DNA of 64,000 nt from Peredibacter starrii (GTDB lineage: Bacteria > Bdellovibrionota > Bacteriovoracia > Bacteriovoracales > Bacteriovoracaceae). Shown piece after piece: positions 8,647 through 16,039 of this stretch (the stretch's first letter is position 1; every line of letters begins with the position of its first letter). Where the stretch lies: contig NZ_CP139487.1 of the NCBI RefSeq assembly GCF_034259205.1, positions 1,550,001-1,614,000 on the forward strand. Reading direction: 5' to 3'. A program made the position numbers and the translations under genes. The notes under the pieces were generated by a model, which saw nothing but the letters and a program-made list of their open reading frames with translations, was not told the origin of the DNA and searched no databases.

Positions 8647-9567
8647 ATGAAAAAGAAGAATAAGTTGCAGCATGTAGCGCCGATGGCACTTAGTGCATTA
8701 CTGTTAATGTCGGTTGTTTCATGTGGTAGCGATGACGATGACAGTAGTAGCTCTACTCCTCAACAACAGCAGAATCAAGAGGGGACATTCACGGCCACTC
8801 TAACGCCTGAAAATCCAAGTGTAACATCTCCTACAGGAACAGCTGAAATTCTTGTTCAGGGTGATAACTTCAATCCTAAAATTCAAGTAATGAATGCTCT
8901 TGATACAACTCACGCTCAGCACATTCACCAGGGTACACGTTGTCCGACTGCGGCCGATGATACTAACGGTGATGGTGTGATCGATGCAACAGAAGCAACT
9001 GCAGTATATGGTCCGGCAATTATTCCTCTAGATGATGATCTAGCGGCAACAACTGGTAACTTCCCATCTGGTGCAGATTATAACTACGATGAAAGTGCAT
9101 CACTTTCTGAAATGCTGACTAATCTAAATCTTGCAACACTTAACCTAGAAGGCCTTGTGGTAAATATTCATGGTGTGCCTGAAGACACTACATTACCATC
9201 AACTGTTCAAGGTTCAAAAGCTGACTTCCCAATCGCATGTGGTACTTTAGCTCTATCAACAGGTGGAACTACAGGTGGCACAACAGGCGGTACAACTGGT
9301 GGTACAACAGGCGGAACTACTGGTGGCACAACAGGTGGAACAACTGGGGGCACAACAGGCGGAACTACTGGTAGTACAGTAGGCGGCACTGCTGGCGGTA
9401 CAGCTGGTGGAACAGTTGGTGGTACAGCAGGCGGCACAGCTGGTGGTACAGTAGGTGGCACAGCTGGCGGTACTGCAGGTGGAACAGCTGGTGGTACAGT
9501 GACTGGTGGAACTGCAGGCGGAACGGCCGGTGGTACAGTGACTGGTACAACAACAACAGGTTACTAA
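8647..9567 (+). CDS. lipoprotein with CHRD-like domain and Gly-Gly-Thr repeat tail
   Basis: A 306-residue lipoprotein with lipobox VVSC at Cys26, followed by an Asp/Ser/Gln linker. The globular part (about 45-200) has THAQHIHQG-RCP, a calcium-loop-like DTNGDGVIDATEA, a second NIHG motif and IACGTL. It resembles CHRD-type beta domains. From about residue 206 to the C terminus there is a tetrapeptide repeat: first GGTT, then GGTA/GGTV. AAAGGAG precedes the ATG. It is likely outer-membrane anchored and surface exposed, with the tail as a flexible or adhesive stalk. The repeat DNA could vary in length by 12-base steps without frameshift. Confidence 0.8.
   Translation: MKKKNKLQHVAPMALSALLLMSVVSCGSDDDDSSSSTPQQQQNQEGTFTATLTPENPSVTSPTGTAEILVQGDNFNPKIQVMNALDTTHAQHIHQGTRCPTAADDTNGDGVIDATEATAVYGPAIIPLDDDLAATTGNFPSGADYNYDESASLSEMLTNLNLATLNLEGLVVNIHGVPEDTTLPSTVQGSKADFPIACGTLALSTGGTTGGTTGGTTGGTTGGTTGGTTGGTTGGTTGGTTGSTVGGTAGGTAGGTVGGTAGGTAGGTVGGTAGGTAGGTAGGTVTGGTAGGTAGGTVTGTTTTGY
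9261..9557 (+). repeat. 12-bp coding tandem repeat (GGN-ACN-ACN/GCN/GTN-GGN)
   Basis: About 300 bases of near-perfect 12-base units encode Gly-Gly-Thr-(Thr/Ala/Val). An upstream block is Thr-rich and a downstream block Ala/Val-rich. Antisense frames stay open only because of this repetition. Confidence 0.9.
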
Positions 9568-11877: not shown

Positions 11878-12945
11878 ATGGCTAAAAAGCGAGACCCCGA
11901 TAAAAGTGCAAGAAATAGAATAATTAAAGATCTAAAAGAAAGATTAAAGGCTCTACAGCCTGATGTTTTAAGGACAACGGGAATTCGAAGTGAATTATCT
12001 CTTAATGCTATTATAGGTAGCAAAAATGATGAATATCTCGATTTGAAAAATGATGTCATTAACTCGGACGCAGAATTCATAAACAAATGGCTGTCGGGAC
12101 TGAAAAAGATGTCTCAATTAGGGGATGATGCCGCAATAAGGTTAGTTTCACTCCTGCGAGCAAATAACTTTTTCAAAAACTATCTAATGCTTTACCTTAA
12201 AAGGTCCTTCCTTATTCACTTCGATGAATTATCAAAAAAACGACCGTCCCTAGATAAGTCTGAGATTTGGATTGGACAGGAAAACGCCAACTACGGATTA
12301 TTTGTAACTCCAAGATTTAAAGATGGGAAATGGGAGAACGATAAAAGTGAGATTCGTGCATTCTCTTATGGCTATTGGACAATTGGTCATGTGTTGAGTA
12401 CTGGATTGGTTATACCAAATAAAAATAAGAAAATTGAGTTCAAGGACCTTGATCAACTTCTTATATTTTTTACTGAAACTCTTGTTCGAAATTCAGGATC
12501 ACAATATGAATATGACATTGCAGATCAGTATGCTGAATTTGTTAAAAATAGTGATAATCCACTGAACATTCCTTTTATGATTCCAGAATTTCGATATTTG
12601 GGAATTGAGAAAAAACATAAATATCGTTTAGATTTTATGATCACGAATCCGTATACGTTGGAAAGAGTTGGAATAGAGCTTTCACCCTGGTCTACCCATG
12701 GTTATTTGAGCAAGATTGGAGATTTAACTCAGAAAGAAATAAATGAAATGGCTTTGGACAATTTTGAATATGAAATGACAAAACACAAAAATTTCTTCAA
12801 ACGACATGGGATATTCTCTTTGATCTATACAGATTCAGATCTCAAAGACTGTAAAAAACTTTTCAAGGAAGACATCCAACCATTACTTGAAGTTGAACAA
12901 CCAGTAACTCAAATCTCTTTCTCTATTATGGAAGAATTTCTATAG
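11878..12945 (+). CDS. putative PD-(D/E)xK-like nuclease, defence cassette candidate
   Basis: A 355-residue cytoplasmic protein with no recognised family. Residues 237-275 run IPEFRYLG, then YRLDF (Asp252), then VGIELSPWSTHG (Glu267, His274). This E-D-E-spaced layout is like the core of restriction-type endonucleases of the Vsr/DUF559 kind, though the usual Lys is not in place. The N-terminal half is helical and charged; residues 128-175 carry the striking IWIGQENANYGLFVTPRF and YWTIGHVL. The local DNA is more AT-rich than the flanks. It is followed after nine bases by a HEPN-type gene. The nuclease reading is an inference. Confidence 0.5.
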   Translation: MAKKRDPDKSARNRIIKDLKERLKALQPDVLRTTGIRSELSLNAIIGSKNDEYLDLKNDVINSDAEFINKWLSGLKKMSQLGDDAAIRLVSLLRANNFFKNYLMLYLKRSFLIHFDELSKKRPSLDKSEIWIGQENANYGLFVTPRFKDGKWENDKSEIRAFSYGYWTIGHVLSTGLVIPNKNKKIEFKDLDQLLIFFTETLVRNSGSQYEYDIADQYAEFVKNSDNPLNIPFMIPEFRYLGIEKKHKYRLDFMITNPYTLERVGIELSPWSTHGYLSKIGDLTQKEINEMALDNFEYEMTKHKNFFKRHGIFSLIYTDSDLKDCKKLFKEDIQPLLEVEQPVTQISFSIMEEFL

Positions 12946-12954
12946 GTCCAAACT

Positions 12955-13521
12955 ATGTTGAATCCTGAAATTGTAAGATTTACTCAATCTTGGCTTACTA
13001 AAGCTGAAGCTTATTCTGAAGAAAATGTTTCTGGCTGTTATGATAAGTTTTTTACCTTGTTTGTAGTTTATAATAGGCTTTATGCTGAGGCTACCTTCCA
13101 CTTGTCTCGACTAGGGCAGATTGATATCGAAAGCCGCGAAGCTTTTCCGGATACGAATGCAGGCCTTAAATACATCATTACATTTCTAACTCCTGAATAT
13201 ATCCAGCAGAGACTTGATGCCGAAACCGCCGCTGCAATTGAAACAATCAAGTCCTTGATTGAAAGTGAAAGGTTTCATATTGTTTTAGATATGAGAGATG
13301 GATCTGTTCGAAGAGACAAAGACATGGAGTTATTGAAATGGCTTAGTTCGGAAAACATTAAGCATAAAGCAAATGGTTTAGCGTTATTACTTTATAGTGT
13401 TAGATGCAATATGTTTCATGGGAACAAATCATATGAACCAGTTCAGGTTGAGCTACTAAGACCTGTAATCATAATTCTAAAATTCTTCATTAGGATCACG
13501 CAAGACAAGCTAATGACCTAG
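12955..13521 (+). CDS. HEPN-like protein (candidate RNase)
   Basis: A 188-residue, all-helical protein. The C-terminal helix has VRCNMFHGNK with Arg150 and His155, i.e. the Rx4H motif of HEPN ribonucleases. An upstream helix reads FVVYNRLYAEA, a pairing common in HEPN proteins. It lies nine bases after the nuclease-like gene on the same strand, so the two are likely an operon. HEPN proteins serve as toxins or RNA-cleaving effectors in defence and toxin-antitoxin systems. No typical MNT antitoxin is adjacent. The stop overlaps the convergent glycerate kinase stop by four bases. Confidence 0.65.
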   Translation: MLNPEIVRFTQSWLTKAEAYSEENVSGCYDKFFTLFVVYNRLYAEATFHLSRLGQIDIESREAFPDTNAGLKYIITFLTPEYIQQRLDAETAAAIETIKSLIESERFHIVLDMRDGSVRRDKDMELLKWLSSENIKHKANGLALLLYSVRCNMFHGNKSYEPVQVELLRPVIIILKFFIRITQDKLMT

Positions 13522-14702
13522 CTTTGTACTAGCACCTGCAAATCACAAACGTTCGTTCCAGTAGGTCCAGTCTTCAAAAGTCCTTGGACCTTCTGGAAAA
13601 AATGATAAGAATCGTTCCTTTCCAGATACTCACTAACTTCAGCTTCGGCCTTATTGTAAATCTCCTCGGTTGCATACGCTCCTGCCGCATCCGTTGGACC
13701 ATCGGTTCCATCAGTTGAAGCAGCTAAGAAAGCCACTCCGGAAGGCCAGCTCTCACGTTTTTCCATTTCTGATAGAAACGCCAAGGCCATCTCTTGATTA
13801 CGTCCGCCTTTACCGTTTCCTTTAAGTGTTACAGTGGTTTCTCCACCGGCGAGATAACATACGCCTTTTTCAAGTTTATCTACGACTGAGGCAAATAAGT
13901 GTGCCGCATCTTTGGCTTCACCTGTTAGCCGTTCAGATAAGATGACTGTCTTATACCCAAGTCTTTTGGCCTCTGCTTCTGCCGCCGCCAGCGCAAGTCG
14001 ATTAGATCCAATAACTAAATTATGCAAATTAGCAGGACCAACTTCACCCGGCTCAGGAACCGTAATCCCTGAAGCAATCGTATGAAGATCATCACCCAAC
14101 ACATCTGACAAAATTAAATTCAACGAAGTAGCAGACGCAATGACTTTCGCGAGCTTCCCACCTTTAATCTTAGAGAGACTCTTTCTAACTTTATTGATCT
14201 CTTGAATCGTGGCCCCAGTTGCAAGTAACTCTTTGGTCTTTGCTTGCTTCTGGGCCAATGTCACTCCATCAATCGGAAGTGCGGCCAATGCCGATGCTCC
14301 ACCAGAGATAAGACCAATAACTAAATCATCAGCTTTTGCTTTTTCACAAAACTCATACAATTTCCTACCAGCTTCAACACTTCGCTCATCCGGAACCGGA
14401 TGAGAAGATTCAAGCTGAAAAAAATGAGAGGGAAGTGATTCACTGTGACCATCTTTCGTAATTATAAGTCCGGCATCAATCCGCTTTCCAAGAACATCGA
14501 TAAGTCCTAAAGCCATTCTTGACGAGGCCTTGCCGACTCCAAATACGAAGATTCTCTTGTAAGCTTTCAGATCAAAACTTTTACCCTGAACAGTAAGAAC
14601 TTCACCATCTAACTTCAAAGTCTGCCCAAGCATACTCCTTGAATCGACTCGATTGAGCCCGGCCCTAAAAATCTTTTCAGCATCTTGAGCAGCTTTATTC
14701 AT
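13518..14702 (-). CDS. glycerate 2-kinase (DUF4147/MOFRL family)
   Basis: A 394-residue enzyme that would phosphorylate D-glycerate to 2-phosphoglycerate. The N-terminal domain has FVFGVGKASSRMALGL, LIISGGASAL and the KxxSxIKGGKLA segment. The C-terminal MOFRL domain has LAGGETTVTLKGNGKGGRNQE and STDGTDGPTDAAGA. The start at 14702 is chosen because it overlaps the permease stop as ATGA, implying translational coupling. With the GntP permease this forms a glycerate or sugar-acid uptake unit feeding glycolysis. Confidence 0.93.
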   Translation of the reverse strand: MNKAAQDAEKIFRAGLNRVDSRSMLGQTLKLDGEVLTVQGKSFDLKAYKRIFVFGVGKASSRMALGLIDVLGKRIDAGLIITKDGHSESLPSHFFQLESSHPVPDERSVEAGRKLYEFCEKAKADDLVIGLISGGASALAALPIDGVTLAQKQAKTKELLATGATIQEINKVRKSLSKIKGGKLAKVIASATSLNLILSDVLGDDLHTIASGITVPEPGEVGPANLHNLVIGSNRLALAAAEAEAKRLGYKTVILSERLTGEAKDAAHLFASVVDKLEKGVCYLAGGETTVTLKGNGKGGRNQEMALAFLSEMEKRESWPSGVAFLAASTDGTDGPTDAAGAYATEEIYNKAEAEVSEYLERNDSYHFFQKVQGLLKTGPTGTNVCDLQVLVQS

Positions 14703-16039
14703 ACGAAGAAACTCAATAACCATGCAACAAGGAAGGCCACTGTTCCTTCAACGAACGTTGCCGTTGAAAATACTCGGTATGCCGTTCCCACTTCTAAATT
14801 AGAAAACTGAGAAACTACCCAAAAATAAGAATCATTTGCGTGTGAAACTACCATCGCACCTGCACCAATCACTACAACCGTAAGCGCAGGGTGAAGTCCA
14901 AGTGTTGCCATGAGTGGTGCCATAATAGTTGAAGTCGTAATGATCGCAACTGTCGATGAACCCTGAGCAGTTTTAAGTGCCGCCGAAATCATAAACGGTA
15001 AGAATAAACCAAGTCCAAGTTTCGGATCGGCCAGAACTGTACTTACATAATCCTTAAGTGGTGAAACACTCAGAATCTTACCAAGCGATCCACCAGCACC
15101 TGTAATCACAAGAATCAGGGCCGCGTCCTTGATCCCTTCACTGGTCCAAGTCGAAAGTGCTTCAGTCCATTCTTTCTTAGACTGAAGAAGAGTAAACGAA
15201 AGAAACATCCCGATGATCAAGGCCACAACTGGATCTCCAATGAACTGAGCAACAGAAGTTAATGCCCCATCACCAAATGGCTTTGAAGGAAGATCGGCCA
15301 CAGATTTACCAACGATTAAAATAATTGGTCCAATGATCGGAAGAAACGAAAGCCATGGAGAAGGAAGTTTTCCATAACGATCAATGAGTGTTTGATAAGA
15401 TTCAGACGCTGGGACTGGTGCCGGAAAACGATTACCAATCTTAGTAGCAAAGAACCAGGCCGCAAGTGCGGCCGGAATTGCGGCCATCGTTCCGAAGAGA
15501 ATAACCATTCCAATGTCAGCATTTAAAGCACCTGAAGCGGCCAAAGGACCCGGAGTAGGTGGAACCATCGTGTGAGTAGCATAAAGACCAGTTGCCAATG
15601 CTACTGCCATAACCACCATTGAAGTTGATGATTCCTTTGCTAATGCCTGATTAAGCGGGTTCATAATAACAAAGCCCGAATCACAGAAAACAGGAATAGA
15701 AACCACAACACCGGCCGCATTCATAGCAAGAGATGAGCGCTCTTTTCCAACGATCTTCAAAATAGACCGAGTCATTGATAAAGCAGCACCTGTTTTCTCC
15801 AAGGTGAGACCCATGATAGTTCCGGCAACGATCACGATACCAATATTTGTAAGCGTTCCCCCGAAGCCTTCTTTTACCAGCTTGATTACTTCCAGAGGTG
15901 GAAGACCGATAGCAACTCCATAGGCAATGGCCACACCAATCAGGACAAGAAAGGCGTTTACCTTATATTTTCCAGTTAGAATGACAATTAGACCTACTGC
16001 CATTAAGAGCATAATGAGCGCAATCTGACCTGATACCAC
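14699..16039 (-). CDS. GntP-family gluconate/glycerate:H+ symporter
   Basis: A 446-residue integral inner-membrane protein with about 12-14 hydrophobic segments. It has family landmarks: the IGIVIVAGTIMG helix, SIPVFCDSGFVIMNPL (about residues 114-129), THTMVPPTPGPLAA, and VSHANDSYFWVV near residue 400. A GTG start at 16039 follows CAGGAGG. It is first in a two-gene operon with glycerate kinase, which makes glycerate a likely substrate. GntP members also carry gluconate and related acids, so the exact substrate is inferred only from context. Confidence 0.92.
   Translation of the reverse strand: MVSGQIALIMLLMAVGLIVILTGKYKVNAFLVLIGVAIAYGVAIGLPPLEVIKLVKEGFGGTLTNIGIVIVAGTIMGLTLEKTGAALSMTRSILKIVGKERSSLAMNAAGVVVSIPVFCDSGFVIMNPLNQALAKESSTSMVVMAVALATGLYATHTMVPPTPGPLAASGALNADIGMVILFGTMAAIPAALAAWFFATKIGNRFPAPVPASESYQTLIDRYGKLPSPWLSFLPIIGPIILIVGKSVADLPSKPFGDGALTSVAQFIGDPVVALIIGMFLSFTLLQSKKEWTEALSTWTSEGIKDAALILVITGAGGSLGKILSVSPLKDYVSTVLADPKLGLGLFLPFMISAALKTAQGSSTVAIITTSTIMAPLMATLGLHPALTVVVIGAGAMVVSHANDSYFWVVSQFSNLEVGTAYRVFSTATFVEGTVAFLVAWLLSFFV

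Follow-up and report, generated by a model that had tools for sequence, protein, structure and literature searches.

A Predicted Stand-Alone Nuclease and an Independent HEPN Gene Lie Side by Side in Peredibacter starrii

Two Adjacent AT-Rich Genes

The window that we analyzed is a stretch of 64,000 nucleotides from Peredibacter starrii (NZ_CP139487.1, positions 1,550,001 to 1,614,000). It contains two adjacent genes, whose features are given here in window coordinates:

11878..12945, + strand: nuclease-like ORF of 355 aa, a predicted stand-alone PD-(D/E)XK-type nuclease of an unnamed family
12268..12405, + strand: central conserved module, residues 131-176 (WIGQ..YG..P...W.NDKSEIR....YW.IGH....G), possible recognition part
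12586..12588, + strand: Glu237 (PExR), putative catalytic residue, invariant
12631..12633, + strand: Asp252 (YRLDF), putative catalytic residue, invariant
12676..12699, + strand: E267-L-S-P-W-S-T-H274 motif, putative active-site strand/loop
12955..13521, + strand: HEPN-like ORF of 188 aa, member of an independent mobile family
13402..13428, + strand: R150-C-N-x-x-H155-G-x-K158, HEPN Rx4H motif

As the initial annotation of this DNA had stated, both ORFs are present with nine bases between them, and both are richer in AT than their surroundings: the nuclease ORF has 33.8% GC and the HEPN ORF 36.5%, against a mean of 42.6% (sd 2.9, n = 55) for the window ORFs of at least 150 codons, among which they rank lowest and third lowest, respectively. 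Comparison within the window thus bore out the low GC that had been proposed as a mark of the pair but revealed nothing unusual in the codon usage of either gene; base composition alone deviates. The lipoprotein-like ORF upstream of the nuclease gene is 15 nt away from it and hence nearly as close as the HEPN gene, so that spacing in the Peredibacter genome is uninformative.

To the left of the pair are small ORFs that are secreted or lipoprotein-like, and the sole relatives of a left-flank protein are 20-25% identical to it. Farther to the left, a GGT-rich tandem repeat (9207-9567), open on both strands, encodes the Gly/Thr/Ala/Val repeats at the tail of an ORF of 306 aa that resembles secreted proteins. 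On the right are genes for a glycerate kinase (MOFRL; 13518-16039) and an adjoining GntP permease. The glycerate kinase is absent from all 25 other genomes of the genus, and the region to the right may therefore, like the pair itself, be accessory. We saw no element ends, repeats, promoters or terminators above chance around the pair, no tRNA insertion site in the window, and no known defense gene close to the pair. In agreement with the statement that no MNT, methyltransferase or known defense gene accompanies the two genes, no model for any of these was matched when the seven-gene neighborhood was compared with Pfam and the nuclease and HEPN proteins with PADLOC. Neither protein had a significant match in Pfam, NCBIfam, PADLOC 2.0.0 or PHROGs or a sequence match among solved structures; likewise, a profile of the nuclease family found nothing among PDB sequences, and profile searches with the HEPN family gave no match.

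An Invariant Active Site with a Variant PD-(D/E)XK Motif

The initial annotation had called the first protein nuclease-like on the basis of Glu237, Asp252, Glu267 and His274. These positions are correct, and all four residues are invariant in 23 homologs that are 34-63% identical; that the pattern persists across homologs so divergent indicates that it is not due to chance and supports the assignment to the PD-(D/E)XK type. E237, D252 and E267 correspond to the conserved acidic residues that PD-(D/E)XK enzymes carry on successive strands. The complete set of C-terminal invariants among the 23 sequences is E237, H247, R250, D252, G265, E267, S269, P270, S272, H274, E299, T318 and D319, of which E267, S269, P270, S272 and H274 fall in the motif at 267-274. 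The lysine of the classical (D/E)XK signature is absent, being replaced at E267-L-S, and H274 is invariant; the family therefore has a variant of the motif. A second cluster of invariant residues (W131, G133, G140, W152, N154, D155, S157, R160, Y166, H171 and G176) marks the central module, which matched no known domain.

Structure prediction and fold search, which had been proposed for both proteins, were informative for one. The single-sequence model of the HEPN protein was all helical with a pLDDT of 41, too poor for a fold search. The AlphaFold (AF2) model of the nuclease, built from 20 sequences, had a mean pLDDT of 80.5 and a pTM of 0.68. It is helical up to residue 120 and has a small beta module with strands at 129-154; between residues 209 and 316 it runs helix-strand-strand-helix-strand, an order that fits that of the PD-(D/E)XK elements. 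The catalytic loop at 272-274 has a pLDDT below 50.

Foldseek found no significant match to the model in the PDB (E > 0.01). In a second-look structural alignment (VIA list), the matches spanning approximately residues 205 to 341 were mostly nuclease-fold proteins, namely Bax1 (Z 4.8 and 4.2), Can2 (4.0 and below), VC1899 (3.6), the RAP domain of FASTKD4 (2.9) and TnsA (2.8), all of these Z scores being under 5 and so below the level that the tool calls safe. A search of the BFVD viral predicted structures returned a DUF2726 protein (E 0.03, probability 0.99), head-completion nucleases and restriction enzymes. Bax1, Can2, VC1899, DUF2726 and RAP proteins are known to share the PD-(D/E)XK fold. 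Although each match is weak, the matches agree with one another and with the invariant residues, and on this basis we infer that the C-terminal part of the protein is PD-(D/E)XK-like.

A Rare and Patchy Family

When 84,980 species genomes were scanned with a profile, relatives of the nuclease turned up at 20 loci, a lower bound given that the scan relies on short exact patterns. The records are named for Gamma- and Alphaproteobacteria, Solidesulfovibrio, a Clostridiaceae MAG, Mucilaginibacter and Edaphobacter, such that the family ranges from Bacteroidota to Acidobacteriota. The closest of the aligned members, at 63% identity to the window protein in a range of 34-63%, is from a Methylobacter MAG. 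A tblastn search added five records, all plasmids: four large ones from Sphingobium, Tritonibacter and Rhizobium (two records), whose relatives aligned with 99% coverage and 46-50% identity, and a Pseudomonas plasmid with a split copy. None of the 128 other genomes of Peredibacter's order has the gene, samples of two other classes (385 and 369 genomes) contained it only in the seed genome, and none was found in viral contigs and phages. This scatter of hits, together with the absence from the order, shows that the family is rare, patchy and horizontally spread.

In every one of 24 loci compared, the GC content of the nuclease gene was lower than that of its 5-kb flanks, the largest drop being as much as 29 points (L013, 38% versus 67%). 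Two copies are interrupted. On a Pseudomonas plasmid (L005; NZ_CP115240.1, 70-16648) the halves of the gene are separated by some 7 kb, split by an IS66-family/mercury-resistance insertion, and in Mucilaginibacter (L024, 9995-11067) the copy occupies two ORFs, owing to a frameshift or a sequencing error.

The Nuclease Stands Alone, Often near Defense Genes

No co-directional gene lies within 60 nt of the nuclease gene in 20 of 24 loci, and we therefore regard it as a stand-alone gene. The loci have no family of neighbors in common beyond mobile-element genes and a few similarities between two loci, for example in the Argonaute genes near L008 and L025. When open frames of at least 25 codons were sought in the 900 nt on each side, no small partner gene or antitoxin was conserved, and the only flanks that resembled each other over this distance were those of L014 and L016 and those of L008 and L025. 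Among the neighbors scanned, a methylase was present beside L002 alone, which is not the arrangement of a Type II restriction-modification system.

The suggestion that the first gene might serve in defense gains support from its copies in other genomes, for at least seven loci have known or predicted defense genes within about 5 kb. These neighbors are PD-T7-1 and a type IIG-like methylase (L002), AbiEi/AbiEii and Abi_C (L004), a short Argonaute at each of two loci (L008 and L025), a Cap4 nuclease and a DUF3732/Lamassu-like ATPase (L009), a TIR protein (L012), and SIR2 with HerA (L018). A PADLOC scan of the neighbors, pooled and hence not attributed to particular loci, added matches to the PbeA/PbeC, PtuA, LmuB, AbiJ and PDC-S46 models. 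The neighbors at four loci (L010, L013, L016 and L023) look ordinary, and the association was judged by inspection.

A Second Family of Mobile HEPN-Like Genes

HEPN proteins are recognized by an Rx4-6H motif in which the residue after the arginine is usually polar (PMC3710099). The 188-aa protein conforms, with the slight departure that the arginine is followed by Cys and then Asn. R150/H155 is its only Rx4H motif and alone could be a product of chance; R150, C151, N152, H155, G156 and K158 are invariant in six divergent members of the family (28-43% identity). The Rx4H motif noted earlier at Arg150/His155 is thus present as part of an invariant RCNxxHGxK signature, and the protein is likely, as judged from this signature, to be a HEPN RNase.

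Relatives (L043-L046 and L048) came from both cells and viruses: three among 326 genomes sampled in the Mucilaginibacter record's phylum, one among 329 in that of the Pseudomonas record, and one on a viral contig, at about 43% identity. A 369-genome sample of Peredibacter's phylum yielded only spurious matches elsewhere. Three weak ones were considered and rejected: the best overlaps an unrelated membrane protein, and the other two contain stops and have weak scores.

By our reading of the sequences, the HEPN gene adjoins genes for RloB and its ATPase in L046, an integrase-like gene precedes it in L045, and in L043 it has conjugation-like genes on one side and a DUF2326-like ATPase gene on the other. 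On the prophage contig L048 (7995-8573), it is a single cargo gene between small- and large-terminase-like genes, an unusual site for an accessory gene. The contexts of the HEPN gene are mobile, and its family is independent of the nuclease.

The Two Genes Are Not a Conserved Pair

The initial annotation had proposed that the genes form a two-gene cassette, an unnamed system, and that conservation of the neighborhood be examined across genomes. This part of the proposal fails. The HEPN gene is next to the nuclease in none of the 24 other nuclease loci, where HEPN-like motifs among the neighbors amounted to scattered regular-expression matches, and the nuclease is in none of the four cellular HEPN-bearing genomes checked. 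Nor was a HEPN relative found anywhere in the 20 genomes holding a relative of the nuclease by a single-sequence query, or in 13 of those 20 by a profile query. By these sequence comparisons, the pairing is a chance or island-level neighborhood of separate mobile units; both may have reached Peredibacter at once, in a small AT-rich block, or have been inserted one after the other at the same place.

Resemblance to Known Systems

Stand-alone PD-(D/E)XK and HEPN defense proteins are a known and growing kind. PD-(D/E)XK was the commonest domain in both the uncharacterized and the newly validated sets of the DefensePredictor study (PMC13092281, 2026). Like the stand-alone PD-(D/E)XK defense proteins of that study, the nuclease is one protein with a predicted nuclease-fold core and an extra, unassigned domain and is accessory and widely scattered; the likeness to the validated proteins is one of description (PMC13092281). 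Type IV (modification-dependent) enzymes share with the nuclease the lack of a partner methylase and an occurrence in defense islands, but the N-terminal half of the nuclease matched no known modified-base reader domain. Bax1, Can2, VC1899, DUF2726 and RAP proteins have weak structural similarity to residues 205-341 but no detectable sequence similarity, and the nuclease has no CARF or helicase partner.

For the HEPN protein the nearest parallel in description is Tha, a prophage-encoded, single-gene anti-phage protein of 301 aa with an RxxxxH motif in a C-terminal HEPN domain (PMC11087260). Both are single HEPN genes with an RxxxxH motif and are borne by prophages (here in L048), but the window protein is 188 aa with its motif at 150-155. 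The Rx4H motif is also common to HEPN-MNT toxin-antitoxin modules; no MNT nucleotidyltransferase gene lies beside the HEPN gene in the window, which thus does not have the partner of such modules.

A Model and Its Alternatives

The explanation that we favor, with a probability of about 0.62, is that two independently mobile genes lie side by side by chance, one for a one-protein anti-phage or anti-plasmid nuclease and the other for a separate HEPN-type RNase. The N-terminal helical part of the nuclease and its central beta module would sense the target or a cue of infection, and the C-terminal domain, of PD-(D/E)XK type and with E237, D252, E267 and H274, would be catalytic. Since no methyltransferase travels with the nuclease, self DNA would probably be spared by a restriction of activity to modified DNA, as in Type IV enzymes, or to cells in which infection has triggered the enzyme. 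The HEPN-type RNase would probably be a separate toxin or abortive-infection effector of a prophage-carried kind. The data themselves show two families, their conservation and horizontal spread, defense genes near the nuclease and the want of a conserved partner; the fold class (from weak matches), DNA as the target, the mode of self/non-self discrimination and any anti-phage effect are what we infer. A bolder reading, to which we would give somewhat less than even odds, is a joint one: that the 355-aa family is an uncharacterized immune nuclease acting as one protein, whose new sensing module (approximately residues 60-205, WIGQ...WENDKSEIR...YWTIGH) distinguishes foreign from self nucleic acid with no methylase as partner, and that the HEPN family is another single-gene immune system, an RNase borne by prophages.

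The favored explanation can be narrowed, to a version that we hold less likely than not: the nuclease would be an orphan restriction enzyme, either Type II-like or modification-directed, with a specific site at which it cleaves foreign DNA. The PD-(D/E)XK-like core and the want of a methylase partner are consistent with this, as is a marginal match to the PADLOC mREase_II model, but that match (E 0.011) falls short of any usable threshold, and an N-terminal half that matches no known modified-base reader argues the other way.

It is improbable that the genes constitute a genuine, co-transcribed two-gene system in the Peredibacter lineage, with the nuclease as a first line and the HEPN RNase following as a suicidal backup or as a regulated toxin. 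Restriction systems are known that have a HEPN protein embedded next to them as a further line of defense (PMC3710099), and the 9-nt gap, common strand and shared AT-richness would suit such an arrangement; against it are the separation of the two genes in all other genomes compared, in both directions of search, and the nearly equal proximity of the lipoprotein-like ORF upstream.

Slightly less probable still is that the nuclease is transposon cargo or an accessory nuclease with a TnsA-like function, serving a mobile element and not the host. In L003 and L015 its flanking genes are Tn7-like (TnsA/TnsB/TnsC/TniQ-like), and in L020 they are Tn402-like, the names being drawn from gene order, shared clusters and hits to TniQ/TnsB models. 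This suggests that carriage by transposons is one route of its spread, and its model weakly resembles TnsA. L003 and L015, however, each contain a separate TnsA-like gene placed where TnsA belongs, as judged from gene order and a shared cluster, and most loci have no such genes, several having defense genes instead. Finally, although the pair sits between ordinary genes in the Peredibacter window, a housekeeping role for ordinary chromosomal genes is very improbable for a nuclease missing from the rest of the order and a HEPN gene missing from the rest of the phylum sample, with rare and patchy occurrence elsewhere and low GC in every nuclease locus; the distribution already contradicts such a role.

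Implications

Adjacency in one genome had hinted at a two-component system, which the comparative data do not back. Both families are unnamed in the libraries searched (Pfam, NCBIfam, PADLOC 2.0.0 and PHROGs), and the lack of further fold matches is no evidence for a new fold. What is left is a nuclease that recurs near Argonaute, SIR2-HerA, Cap4, TIR, AbiE and PD-T7-1 genes across several phyla and is yet missing from the defense catalogues used. It is a small, single-gene candidate that is easy to test. Its invariant non-catalytic module offers a well-delimited starting point for studying how the host genome escapes a nuclease that has no methylase.
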